From the NCBI GenBank assembly GCA_014762755.1, contig JABURI010000172.1, positions 1 through 64,000 on the forward strand: 64,000 nt of DNA, written 5' to 3'. Below the pieces are notes generated by a model. The model saw only the letters and a list, made by a program, of their open reading frames with translations, was not told where the DNA came from and searched no databases. Shown in pieces: positions 49,812 to 54,015 of the stretch. How positions within the stretch are numbered: the stretch's first letter is position 1; every line of letters starts with the position of its first letter. Position numbers and translations under genes: made by a program. This stretch comes from Marinobacter sp. (GTDB taxonomy: Bacteria; Pseudomonadota; Gammaproteobacteria; Pseudomonadales; Oleiphilaceae).

Positions 49812-50563
49812 GCGCCGATCGCACGAATGACCTGGAATCCCCGCTGACACCCATCGAGGTAACCGCCTCCAAACAGGTTGTAGTGGTTCAGGTAGTGATA
49901 CAGGTTGTAGATGTCCCGCTTACGCGGATAGTCCGGAGTGCGGGCGTACATCCGGTCGTAGGCCTCGTAGAACGGCTCGCCGAAGCCGCCGAACATTTCG
50001 GTCATGGCCAGGTCCGCCTCCCGGTCACCACAATAGACGGCCGGGTCGATCAGCCAGGGGGCGTTCCGATCAAACAGGGCATTGCCGCTCCAGAGGTCCC
50101 CGTGTAAGAGGCTCGGATGCTCACAACGGCTATCCAGCCACCGGGCCAGGACCTCGCCGTGGCGCTGAAGCACCGTCTCAAACTCACCACGAACCTCCGG
50201 GTTCCGGATCCGCCCTACCTGGTACCCCAGACGGTCTGAGACAAAAAATTCGCCCCAGGAATCCGACCAGCGGTTCGGTTGCGGCGACAGGCCAATGTAG
50301 TTGTCCCGTCCCCAGCCATATCGATCCTGCTTCAGCCGGTGCATCAGCGCCAGCCCTTCACCGAGCATGGCAAGGGTTTCGGCTGTTGCCGGCTCAGACT
50401 CGATACCGGTGATCTCCAGCGTACTGTCATCCACCCGGGCCACCTCGGGAATCCGCACATCCGTGACCCCCGCCTGAGTCAACGCTGACCGGAGGCTCTC
50501 GAGGCCCTCCGCCTCGCAGATCAGTGCGTCGGCAAATCCGGTAGTATTATGTTTGATGAACAT
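49796..50563 (-). CDS. Fructosamine kinase family protein
   Basis: PSLLHGDLWSGNALFDRNAPWLIDPAVYCGDREADLAMTEMFGGF; start at MFIKHNTTGF. Confidence 0.93.
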   Translation of the reverse strand: MFIKHNTTGFADALICEAEGLESLRSALTQAGVTDVRIPEVARVDDSTLEITGIESEPATAETLAMLGEGLALMHRLKQDRYGWGRDNYIGLSPQPNRWSDSWGEFFVSDRLGYQVGRIRNPEVRGEFETVLQRHGEVLARWLDSRCEHPSLLHGDLWSGNALFDRNAPWLIDPAVYCGDREADLAMTEMFGGFGEPFYEAYDRMYARTPDYPRKRDIYNLYHYLNHYNLFGGGYLDGCQRGFQVIRAIGAQMMP

Positions 50564-50645
50564 GACTCTGCCCTTTCTTGAATCGTTTCCGGCCGGGGCG
50601 TTAGATTGTACTGAGGCTAACACGTAACGGAGTCGCGCGACCGCT

Positions 50646-50924
50646 ATGGACAAGAAACGCTGGAAAATGCTGATCTCTGGCAAGGTGCAGGGAGTCTACT
50701 ACCGTGCCTCTACCGAAAAGGAAGCCAATCGGCTGGGGCTTTCCGGCTACGCCAGGAATCTGCCAGACGGGCGCGTTGAGGTAATTGCCGAAGGCAGTCC
50801 CGAGGAACTCCGCCAGTTGCACCGATGGTGCCAGGAGGGGCCTCCCGCAGCCAAAGTGACCGGCATCGAGGTTGAAGAACAGCGGGCCAACGGGGAGTTC
50901 TCGAATTTCGGGGTACGGTACTGA
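50646..50924 (+). CDS. Acylphosphatase
   Basis: MLISGKVQGVYYRASTEKEANRLGLSGYARNLPDGRVEVIAEG. Confidence 0.97.
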   Translation: MDKKRWKMLISGKVQGVYYRASTEKEANRLGLSGYARNLPDGRVEVIAEGSPEELRQLHRWCQEGPPAAKVTGIEVEEQRANGEFSNFGVRY

Positions 50925-50928
50925 AAAT

Positions 50929-51597
50929 TCAGAGATACCGTTGCCTCAGCGCCTGTTTCAACGCTTTCCGCCAGGCTTCTACATCGACCTCACAACTGCT
51001 CAGGACCTCAAAGTCCCTGTTCTCCAGGACCTCATCCTTCGGCGGCGCAGCGGACTGGATCACCCGGTCTCGTTCCTCCAGCAGGGCTGCAATATGAAAA
51101 CGGTAGAGCCTGACAAAGTGGGTTATCCAGATGTTCACAGGCCAACTCGGCGAGGCGTGGTCAATCTCAAACTCGCCAAGCCGGGGAATGATCTGGTCGG
51201 CGGAATGCCACTTCTCGTCGGTTACCCAGCGGTTGGTGGTAAAGAGACCGACCGGGTAGCCCCAGGCATCCATGGAGATGGCGATGAGGTGCATGGTGCG
51301 ATCCTCACCCTGCTCCCCATCCGGAAGCCTCAAGAACGTATGGAAATGGCCGTGTTCCGGGTTGTCCGGACGGTGGGCGTGGTAATAGTACTGGCTGCGG
51401 GTATCCCGGTCGAAGACATCACCCTTTGGGTAATGCTCCATTTCATAGAAGGTTCCCTGCCCCTTTAACACCTCACCGACAATATTCAGCCCGCCTTTCT
51501 CAAGCACGCGATAGCACTCCCGGACCCGTTTGGCCGAATCCAGGAGACTTTCGAGCTCTTCGTCCGCCAGGGCGGAGAGGTCAGGCTGAAAACCCAT
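50929..51597 (-). CDS. Conserved hypothetical protein
   Basis: 223 aa starting MGFQPDLSALADEELESLL; ATG overlaps upstream stop, same-strand operon with phosphatase-like lipoprotein. Confidence 0.75.
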   Translation of the reverse strand: MGFQPDLSALADEELESLLDSAKRVRECYRVLEKGGLNIVGEVLKGQGTFYEMEHYPKGDVFDRDTRSQYYYHAHRPDNPEHGHFHTFLRLPDGEQGEDRTMHLIAISMDAWGYPVGLFTTNRWVTDEKWHSADQIIPRLGEFEIDHASPSWPVNIWITHFVRLYRFHIAALLEERDRVIQSAAPPKDEVLENRDFEVLSSCEVDVEAWRKALKQALRQRYL

Positions 51598-52406
51598 TAA
51601 AGGCCCATGAGTTCCCGGACAGCACCTTCCCGGCTGGTCTTCATGCCGGCAGCACGTCCTTCTTCGATGGCAATCTCCGCAGGCACACCCATGTGGAAAC
51701 GGTAGAGAGCCCACATGGCCCCTACCCGGTTACTACTGGCGCAATGAAGCAGGATCGGATAATTCGCCGGTGACGATGCGATCTTCGAGAACGCCTCAAC
51801 CTGCGACTGCGTTGGTGCGGTGGTTGAAACACCCAGGGCATAGAAGTTCAGACCAGCGGCATGTGCCTCGGCTTTCTCTTCCGCTACCCCTTCTTCTTCC
51901 GTCAGCAGACTGACCACCGTATTGAACCCCTGGGCCTTCAGTTCCGCCATCGCGCCTTTCTCTACGTGACCGCCGGCTGCAATGAAAGGAGACGGCCGAT
52001 TGTAATTCTTGACTATCTGAGGCATCTCGCTGCCATAGGGCACCATGGGCCAGTCGTTTTCGATGGCAAACGGCAGGCCACGGTCGGGATTTTGCGCGGC
52101 TGTTCGGGGAACGGCAGCAGGCATTGGCTGGGCTGTACCACCACCGGACGCTGAGCCTGCCGCACAGGGGTTCGCTGACGGACTTGCTGCAGCACACGGA
52201 TTGGCCGCGGAGCAGGGGTTCGCCGCACTCGGGCTCGCCGCCGCACACGGATTCGCAGCAGCACACGGGTTGGCCGCCGACTGGCTGCTTGTCTGGGCCT
52301 GGGTCGGGGCCGGGTTCTGCGAATCGGAGCAACCGCTAACCCCCATGCCCAAAGCAATGGTAATGGCCACAGGCAATGCGGCACGTTTGAATCGATAACA
52401 GGTCAT
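51597..52406 (-). CDS. Lipoprotein with Cys-containing NPCAA repeats and DSP/BLH-type phosphatase-like domain
   Basis: Lipobox LGMGVSGC; NPCAAANPCAAASPSAANPCSAANPCAAASPSANPCAAG; PTP-loop-like LLHCASSNRVGAMWALYR. Confidence 0.82.
   Translation of the reverse strand: MTCYRFKRAALPVAITIALGMGVSGCSDSQNPAPTQAQTSSQSAANPCAAANPCAAASPSAANPCSAANPCAAASPSANPCAAGSASGGGTAQPMPAAVPRTAAQNPDRGLPFAIENDWPMVPYGSEMPQIVKNYNRPSPFIAAGGHVEKGAMAELKAQGFNTVVSLLTEEEGVAEEKAEAHAAGLNFYALGVSTTAPTQSQVEAFSKIASSPANYPILLHCASSNRVGAMWALYRFHMGVPAEIAIEEGRAAGMKTSREGAVRELMGL
52155..52285. repeat. Imperfect short tandem repeats encoding NPC(A/S)A units
   Basis: Recurrent gcagcacacggattggccg/ccgcacacggattcgcag units in the coding sequence. 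Confidence 0.75.
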
Positions 52407-52418
52407 GACTGCGCTCCT

Positions 52419-53030
52419 TCAGTTCTTTTTAGTGTCTTCCGGATAGAGATCAGAGGCCTGGTAGGGCCCGCCCAGTTTCTGCTCAACCTTGCTGCCAAGC
52501 TTGAAACCACCCCAGGCCATTGCCGCCAGCACGATAATGATGAGCCATTCGGGAATGCCGGTAAGATCCATCAGCGTCTGCCCCTGAGGCCCGGGTGTCG
52601 CGAGGTAGAGCTGCTCGAGTGGGCCAAACCAGGCGGCAAACAGCGCGGTGCCAATGACCATTCCAATCATGAATACGACCGCGTCAATCCGTCCCCCGGC
52701 AAACCCGGCCACCGAAGTGCCCGGGCAATAGCCGCCGATGGCAAAACCGGCACCGATCAGCAATCCCCCAACCGCCATGGCAAGATAGAAAGGAGTGGGC
52801 ACGTAGTAGCTGGCATCGCCCATCAAACCGAACAGTTTCGACAGCCACAGCAGCAGGGCCGCGACAATGACGGCGGTAAACATCACCTTGAAGACAGACC
52901 AGTCTTCAAGCCGAAACTGCCCGGTGAGCTTCCGGGGGCTGCCAAACCCGGCATTTTCAAGCACAAAGCCGAACAGGAAGCCGGCAAGCAAGCCGGACGC
53001 AACGCCTGAATCATAGAGAGGCCAGATCAT
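52419..53030 (-). CDS. YeeE/YedE-family transporter half (sulfur compound transport)
   Basis: AGFLFGFVLENAGFGSPRKLTGQF ... GGYCPGTSVAGFAGGRIDAVVFMIGM. Confidence 0.9.
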   Translation of the reverse strand: MIWPLYDSGVASGLLAGFLFGFVLENAGFGSPRKLTGQFRLEDWSVFKVMFTAVIVAALLLWLSKLFGLMGDASYYVPTPFYLAMAVGGLLIGAGFAIGGYCPGTSVAGFAGGRIDAVVFMIGMVIGTALFAAWFGPLEQLYLATPGPQGQTLMDLTGIPEWLIIIVLAAMAWGGFKLGSKVEQKLGGPYQASDLYPEDTKKN

Positions 53031-53533
53031 TGCCAGTACCTCCTCACAATAAAGCTGAACAGGAAACCCGCCGCGAAGAAGCAGATCAGGAACACGAAGC
53101 CCCCGACCGCCAGCGCCGCACCACCGGAAAGACCGAGGCCGCTGGTGCAGCCGCGTGCCAATCGGGCACCGAGTCCAGTCAGGACGCCCCCGATCAGAGC
53201 CAGCACGAGCCGGCTACCCACCCCGGATGACGGCCCCCGTTCCACCTGAGGCCTGAATCTTCGACCGGAGAGCGCACCGACAAGTGCCCCAATGAACGCT
53301 CCGAGCACCTCCCAGGTGATCCAGGCCTGCTGGGGTTCGCCGCGGACATAGTCACCCAGGTAGCGGTTGGCGGCCGTCAGTTCCGGTGCCAGCCACTGCC
53401 CGACTTCTGCGGTCAATCGGGTGAAGAAGCCGCTGGCACCCAAACCGTGGCCGGTCAGGACAAAGGTGAGAAACAGTGCCAACCCCAGGGCGATGCCTGC
53501 CCATAGAGGTGACCAGAAGGGGCGTGGAGACAT
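53027..53533 (-). CDS. YeeE/YedE-family transporter half
   Basis: LIGGVLTGLGARLARGCTSGLGLSGGAALAVGGFVF; 4-nt overlap with second half. Confidence 0.92.
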   Translation of the reverse strand: MSPRPFWSPLWAGIALGLALFLTFVLTGHGLGASGFFTRLTAEVGQWLAPELTAANRYLGDYVRGEPQQAWITWEVLGAFIGALVGALSGRRFRPQVERGPSSGVGSRLVLALIGGVLTGLGARLARGCTSGLGLSGGAALAVGGFVFLICFFAAGFLFSFIVRRYWQ

Positions 53534-53662
53534 ATCCGACTCCTTTTCGTTCAGTAGGTTATACCTGTTTTATATATGGTTATTCCCTACTGTCAAACCC
53601 ACAAGGCTGGATACCGCTCAAGAAGTGATACTGATCAAGTTTAGACCTGGAATACGCCCAAT

Positions 53663-53692
53663 AAAAAACCCCGCCATTTCTGACGGGGTTTT
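53663..53692 (-). terminator. Rho-independent terminator downstream of tRNA-Ser
   Basis: Minus-strand aaccccg-loop-cggggtt followed by T-tract. Confidence 0.85.
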
Positions 53693-53696
53693 ATAT

Positions 53697-53787
53697 TGGC
53701 GGAGAGGGAGGGATTCGAACCCTCGATACGCTATTAACGTATACACACTTTCCAGGCGTGCGCCTTCAGCCACTCGGCCACCTCTCC
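53697..53787 (-). tRNA. tRNA-Ser(GGA)
   Basis: Reverse complement GGAGAGGTGGCCGAGTGGCTGAAGGCGCACGCCTGGAAAGTGTGTATACGTTAATAGCGTATCGAGGGTTCGAATCCCTCCCTCTCCGCCA; long variable arm, anticodon GGA. Confidence 0.97.
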
Positions 53788-54015
53788 AATAAACTGTTTC
53801 AAATCAGCGATGTTGCCGCTCATTTGAGGGCGCAAACTTTAATAGTTTTTCAGGCCCTTGGCAACACCCTAGCTCGAAATCGCCGAAAAAATTTCACTTT
53901 GGCCCGGATTCCGGTTAACGGTTGAACAGGTTGAGGACTATCGTTAACAGAACGCTGATGACAATCATCGAGGTGATCGGTATAAAACTGCCCTCTCAGA
54001 ACAAGGAGAATAACA

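Follow-up and report, generated by a model that had tools for sequence, protein, structure and literature searches.

Organization and conservation of the cassette

The window (the whole 64,000-nucleotide stretch of Marinobacter sp. DNA that was analyzed) carries on its minus strand four adjoining genes, here called A, B, C, and D, which span positions 50929 to 53533. The ORF calls place a 4-nt overlap at the A/B junction, a 12-nt gap between B and C, and a 1-nt overlap (TAATG) between C and D, reproducing in every detail the tight packing of four minus-strand genes described in an earlier note on this DNA. The genes and their features are listed from the upstream edge.

53697..53787, minus strand: tRNA-Ser(gga), boundary outside the cassette at its upstream edge (ARAGORN)
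53027..53533, minus strand: gene A, C-terminal-half YeeE/YedE protein (PmpA-like), 168 aa (PF04143)
52419..53030, minus strand: gene B, N-terminal-half YeeE/YedE protein (PmpB-like), 203 aa (PF04143)
51597..52406, minus strand: gene C, NPC-repeat lipoprotein ending in a DUF442-type domain, 269 aa (PF22741, PF04273, lipobox)
52158..52271, minus strand: NPC Cys-repeat stretch of C, residues 46 to 83 (five NPC units)
51726..51743, minus strand: active loop of C, Cys222-A-S-S-N-Arg227 (alignments; 3gxh fold match)
50929..51597, minus strand: gene D, DUF6969 protein, 222 aa (PF22308, 250.9 bits)
51289..51381, minus strand: His-rich core of D, candidate metal or catalytic site (H73, H75, E81, H84, H86, H103)

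A promoter and terminator scan of positions 50400 to 54000 returned no signal clearly over the shuffled background.

Judged by their sequences, genes A and B are two separate halves of a PF04143 (YeeE/YedE, PmpAB-like) transporter. Gene A matches profile positions 176 to 309 (E = 3.4e-20) and gene B positions 4 to 145 (E = 1.4e-14), both above the cut-off, and the split transporter named in the earlier note is thus recovered as two proteins covering opposite halves of the profile. Cys129 of A lies in a GCTSG motif and Cys102, the single cysteine of B, in a GYCPGT motif; both are also present in the homologues of locus L163, which come from the same kind of operon and are 52% identical to A and 51% identical to B. 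Elsewhere in the window's genome, two further half matches to PF04143 form another pair (G000:C90:34532-35380; L217 and L218), and one of them has a TAG inside its reading frame.

Gene C encodes a Cys-repeat lipoprotein, as had been proposed, with a lipobox (VSG-Cys26) and five NPC units (Cys 48, 54, 65, 71, and 81); in an alignment of five orthologues, the number of NPC units ranges from 3 to 6. Its C-terminal domain gives weak PTP-like matches, above the cut-off, to PF22741 and PF04273, and its TIGR01244 score of 47.9 bits is below the cut-off of 85.85. The top structural match to a model of C (pLDDT 72.8) is the DUF442 protein 3gxh (Foldseek, E = 1.1e-5, prob 1.00), and PTP structures are also among the Foldseek matches. 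The loop HCASSNR, previously read as CxxxxxR, is actually C-x4-R, running from Cys222 to Arg227, which is the rhodanese length: rhodanese loops have six residues and PTP loops have seven. The loops of the DUF442 structures 2f46 (CRTGTR) and 3gxg (CLANYR) are equal in length to that of C, and the loop of phosphatase 25xa is one residue longer. Model match and alignments therefore place both a DUF442 (PTP-like) fold and a CX4R loop in C.

Thiosulfate sulfurtransferase activity has been proven for a DUF442 domain that has a rhodanese-like site (PMC5823870); given this precedent and the CX4R length, C is more likely to be a sulfurtransferase than a phosphatase. C might instead act as a phosphatase in the periplasm, its Cys-rich stretch serving as a linker, in an operon serving as a signaling or phosphate module apart from sulfur, as the PTP-like profile matches and the PTP structures among the Foldseek matches would allow; but the six-residue loop shared with DUF442 proteins, the DUF442 protein at the top of the fold matches, and the cytochrome or small peptide that replaces the C domain at sister loci make this very improbable. 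A CX5R phosphatase was dropped as a candidate because the loop is CX4R.

The A-B-C-D order is kept in five genomes, namely, those of the window, two congeners (L045 and L046), Marinobacter sp. C7 (L062), and Pseudidiomarina salinarum (L063). In the congener G143 (locus L197), the tRNA-Ser gene is about 35 bp from an acylphosphatase gene with nothing between them; in the window, the cassette separates the tRNA-Ser gene from an acylphosphatase gene, that of L197 being 80% identical. Since all four genes occur together in five genomes and the site is empty in a congener, the cassette is a discrete unit, and its genes, on whose co-conservation the candidate operon of the earlier note depended, are indeed conserved together. 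A close orthologue of C is present in only 2 of 36 sampled congeners (G144 and G158), and the idea of a genus-wide feature was abandoned for that reason.

In a distant gammaproteobacterial genus (L163 to L165), the order is A-B-NPC peptide-D-rhodanese-ArsR, followed by a small membrane protein. There an exported NPCGP peptide of 77 aa stands where C would be, and identities are about 51 to 52% for A and B and 36% for D. The sulfur theme of the putative module in the window thus holds in its co-conservation, in its PF04143 halves, in the DUF442-like domain with its rhodanese-length loop, and in the rhodanese and BigR-like ArsR genes (the latter scoring 102.2 against a BigR cut-off of 155) of these relatives; what has to be revised is its core, which is the NPC stretch together with DUF6969. 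The pairing of a phosphatase-like protein with an unknown one gives way likewise, the lipoprotein being only one of several carriers of NPC repeats.

DUF6969 and its linkage to Cys-repeat proteins

Gene D matches PF22308 (DUF6969) at 250.9 bits, with a cut-off of 27, and its residues 21 to 204 align to profile positions 3 to 201. The protein previously left uncharacterized is therefore no orphan but a member of a Pfam family, DUF6969. No signal peptide was seen in D. The AlphaFold2 model (pLDDT 90.7, pTM 0.91) consists of an antiparallel sheet and helices; it has zero Foldseek matches at E ≤ 0.001 in the PDB and BFVD, and the DUF6969 profile yielded a single, meaningless match among PDB sequences, such that none of these three sources provided a fold or sequence match marking DUF6969 as an enzyme. 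Assignments as an MNIO or a cupin were dropped, there being neither a family nor a fold match. Among open-licence papers, none was found on DUF6969, PF22308, or NPCAAK-type strings, and none linking Cys-rich RiPPs with sulfane sulfur.

Residues H73, H75, E81, H84, H86, H103, and N122 are identical in all 111 DUF6969 sequences, and H82 is identical in 110; residues 81 to 88 were in the scan motif for 80 of the 111, so that invariance there is partly by selection, and H73, H75, H103, and N122 are outside that motif. In the model, HxH pairs on neighboring strands suggest a metal site, and the invariant His/Glu/Asn set appears to resemble a catalytic or metal site more than a chaperone groove.

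Genome contigs scanned with the DUF6969 alignment yielded 563 confirmed loci, the best 80 of which were kept. In 67 of these best 80, an NPC/PCA-type repeat protein is encoded within 4 kb of DUF6969, usually directly upstream; the Cys-repeat neighbor in L063 is weaker than those in the 67. An automated count over 111 loci found 82 with at least 4 copies of a Cys tripeptide and 90 with at least 3, a few of which could be wrong-frame ORFs, and inspection added six loci (L055, L058, L096, L140, L171, and L172), bringing the total to between 82 and 96 of 111, depending on the criterion. An exported Cys-repeat protein thus sits beside DUF6969 in about 85% of the 111 loci, which come from alpha-, beta-, and gammaproteobacteria. 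In L082, L090, L101, L122, L134, L137, and L138, there is no clear adjacent NPC-repeat gene, and NPC repeats occur elsewhere in the genome.

Co-occurrence was assessed in an HMM-drawn sample of 398 genomes of the phylum, 21 of which have DUF6969 besides the window's own. A strict NPCx3 DNA pattern is present in 10 of the 21 genomes with DUF6969 versus 15 of the 377 others (odds ratio, 22; P = 3e-8), these 25 genomes probably including at least 2 false ones, since the matches in G534 and G264 resemble noncoding tandem repeats. The distance from the pattern to DUF6969 is no more than about 2.2 kb in 8 of the 10 co-occurring genomes, and when all Cys-repeat types are considered by inspection, 17 of the 21 have an adjacent one.

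Taken together, these data indicate that DUF6969 and Cys-repeat proteins are almost certainly functionally linked. The sampled loci are related and not phylogenetically independent, as would be expected if the linkage were an inherited gene order, uninformative about function; but the Cys motifs, the carrier domains, and the genes on either side differ between separate DUF6969 clades, yet the Cys-repeat protein stays, which leaves this explanation scarcely any probability.

Beyond the repeat itself and either an export signal or a membrane anchor, the DUF6969-linked proteins have nothing in common. Besides the lipoprotein of the window, the carriers include cytochromes c matching PF21342 (SoxA-TsdA_cyt-c) and peptides of 60 to 140 aa with NPCGP, SPCGL, GCC, CAAGC, or KKPCAAKKPC repeats. 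The DUF6969 clade of the window (5 rows; SH-aLRT, 99) is nested in a clade (17 rows; SH-aLRT, 91) whose other members are partnered with NPC cytochromes, and therefore one fused domain was replaced by another while the repeats persisted. From these sequence patterns, the Cys repeat is probably the client of DUF6969. In the rhodanese clade (L054 to L059 and L171), the peptide is located between YeeE/YedE and DUF6969; these small peptides have a conserved membrane anchor that ends in IDHTRH, and the shared motif AIDHTRHxLP, possibly a recognition sequence, precedes their Cys repeats.

NPC proteins also occur without DUF6969, mostly in family f194 and beside cytochromes, and DUF6969 is therefore not required by every such protein. 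Two f194 loci (L179 in G220 and L181 in G217) encode NPC-repeat cytochromes and small NPC proteins with no DUF6969 nearby, and their neighborhoods contain a gene similar to the one for an ArsS-type radical SAM protein in L125; repeats of this kind may be served there by another partner. At the end of contig G332:C65 (L176), an exported protein that consists of little else than NPCAA and NPCNA units, 20 NPC in all, runs off the contig, and a search of genome G332 did not find DUF6969. A HEAT-repeat-like protein directly follows DUF6969 in L132, L137, L138, L173, and L174, which are mostly alphaproteobacterial, and several of these have no adjacent Cys-repeat gene.

Sulfur-related neighbors and the possible role of the repeats

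Within 3.5 kb of DUF6969, the 111 loci encode SoxA/TsdA-like cytochromes (42 loci), YeeE/YedE proteins (33), rhodaneses (10), FGE-like proteins (8), thioredoxins (6), DsbD (5), MNIOs (4), and ArsS (4). YeeE/YedE is far more frequent than a generous background of 2% would give, the loci being mutually related, and several DUF6969 loci have no sulfur gene nearby. A sulfur role for the cassette of the window is likely.

In 8 of the 111 loci (L097:6048-6941, L082, L094, L100, L108, L135, L138, and L141), FGE/SUMF1-like genes (PF03781) adjoin those for DUF6969 and NPC proteins, and PF03781 is the superfamily of both the formylglycine-generating enzyme and EgtB. The MNIO genes are in L049 (8251-9294), L080, L117, and L175, and that of L049 scores 396.8 bits, the bufferin-maturase cut-off being 310. 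The FGE-like and MNIO neighbors would also fit other cysteine or metal chemistry.

We propose that the cassette represents one form of a widespread system with two parts, an exported Cys-repeat protein and a dedicated cytoplasmic DUF6969 protein. DUF6969 would most likely bind the unfolded Cys repeats ahead of Sec export and modify or load their cysteines at its His-rich, probably metal-binding site. In the periplasm, the DUF442 domain of C could take sulfane sulfur from thiosulfate or polysulfide, the Cys repeats would hold it or pass it on as a relay, and A and B would import sulfur species across the inner membrane. We infer that DUF6969 is an enzyme, that the repeat is its client, and in which direction sulfur flows; the reading as a whole, with DUF6969 maturing or loading the repeats and a sulfur relay outside, seems to us about evenly poised, and chemical modification by DUF6969 is at best an even prospect.

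Two other accounts of the repeats bear on this proposal. The cysteines could stay unmodified and form a multithiol carrier of sulfane sulfur, similar to SoxYZ, with DUF6969, as chaperone or sulfur donor, maintaining them in a reduced, export-ready state instead of acting as a maturase. Sulfur genes surround many DUF6969 loci, and the neighboring thioredoxin and DsbD could keep periplasmic thiols reduced; the catalytic or metal character that the invariant His/Glu/Asn set seems to have argues against a chaperone, the several loci without a nearby sulfur gene also count against this account, and we regard it as unlikely, if a serious competitor.

Alternatively, the repeats could bind copper or zinc, as a periplasmic metallothionein or bufferin would, with DUF6969 as a metal-dependent maturase or metallochaperone and the sulfur genes secondary. 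Their motifs do resemble those of Sec-exported bufferin and EGKCG-repeat precursors (PMC12452194), and one of the four MNIO genes near DUF6969 exceeds the bufferin-maturase cut-off; but YeeE/YedE, rhodanese, and SoxA/TsdA-like neighbors are far commoner than MNIO, and the cassette of the window showed no metal transporter, which renders metal binding distinctly unlikely as the primary role.

Returning to maturation or loading by DUF6969, a RiPP would require a precursor of repeated core motifs, modified after translation, beside a dedicated modifying protein; the genetic pairing is seen, with DUF6969 as a candidate for the modifying role. The pairing of DUF6969 with Cys-repeat proteins suggests a previously undescribed system that makes or loads such proteins. 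It is tempting, albeit somewhat doubtful, to go further and regard DUF6969 as a new family of Cys-modifying (RiPP-type) maturases, with a fold absent from the PDB, that acts on Sec-exported Cys-repeat proteins, full-length cytochromes and lipoproteins included, and would define a new class of modified poly-cysteine proteins for extracytoplasmic sulfur chemistry. For an uncharacterized family, these results point to a concrete, probable client and supply over 560 candidate loci. Should DUF6969 indeed modify or load cysteines, a further enzyme family would join the field of Cys-repeat precursors, whose known examples come mainly from MNIO systems, and the occurrence of NPC repeats on unrelated exported proteins around sulfur transporters would be explained.

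Comparison with known systems

The arrangement recalls bufferins and other MNIO-modified, Sec-exported precursors, in which an exported precursor with repeated cysteines adjoins a gene for a dedicated cytoplasmic partner (PMC12452194). It differs in that a profile search detected no MNIO maturase gene among the cassette genes of the window, that Pfam does not class DUF6969 as an MNIO, and that the DUF6969 model has no fold match in the PDB.

Similarities to the bigR operon and Blh (DUF442-ETHE1) of Xylella and Agrobacterium lie in the DUF442-type domain of C, its rhodanese-like loop, and the sulfur setting, as well as in the BigR-like ArsR gene of L163 to L165 (PMC5823870). In contrast to Blh, C is exported as a lipoprotein and has no ETHE1 domain, and the profile search found neither an ETHE1 sulfur dioxygenase domain nor an ArsR/BigR regulator among the cassette genes of the window.

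PmpA and PmpB match the C and N halves of PF04143, respectively, with one key cysteine each (PMC11582611). Genes A and B likewise encode two short PF04143 proteins, with A corresponding to the C half and B to the N half, and both have a cysteine in the expected type of motif (candidate counterparts, by motif, of TsuA Cys293 and Cys91). At 168 and 203 aa, however, they are longer than the approximately 130 aa of PmpA and PmpB, and their operon also encodes DUF6969 and a Cys-repeat protein. The same paper, which concerns SoxT, reports pmpAB as having no link to sulfur oxidation in Hyphomicrobium denitrificans (PMC11582611), a result that weighs against our proposal.

Finally, sister loci fuse NPC repeats to a domain matching PF21342, as in SoxA/TsdA-type cytochromes c, although that domain scores 42.4 bits against a SoxA equivalog cut-off of 110. 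In the clade of the window, a DUF442-type domain takes the place of the cytochrome.
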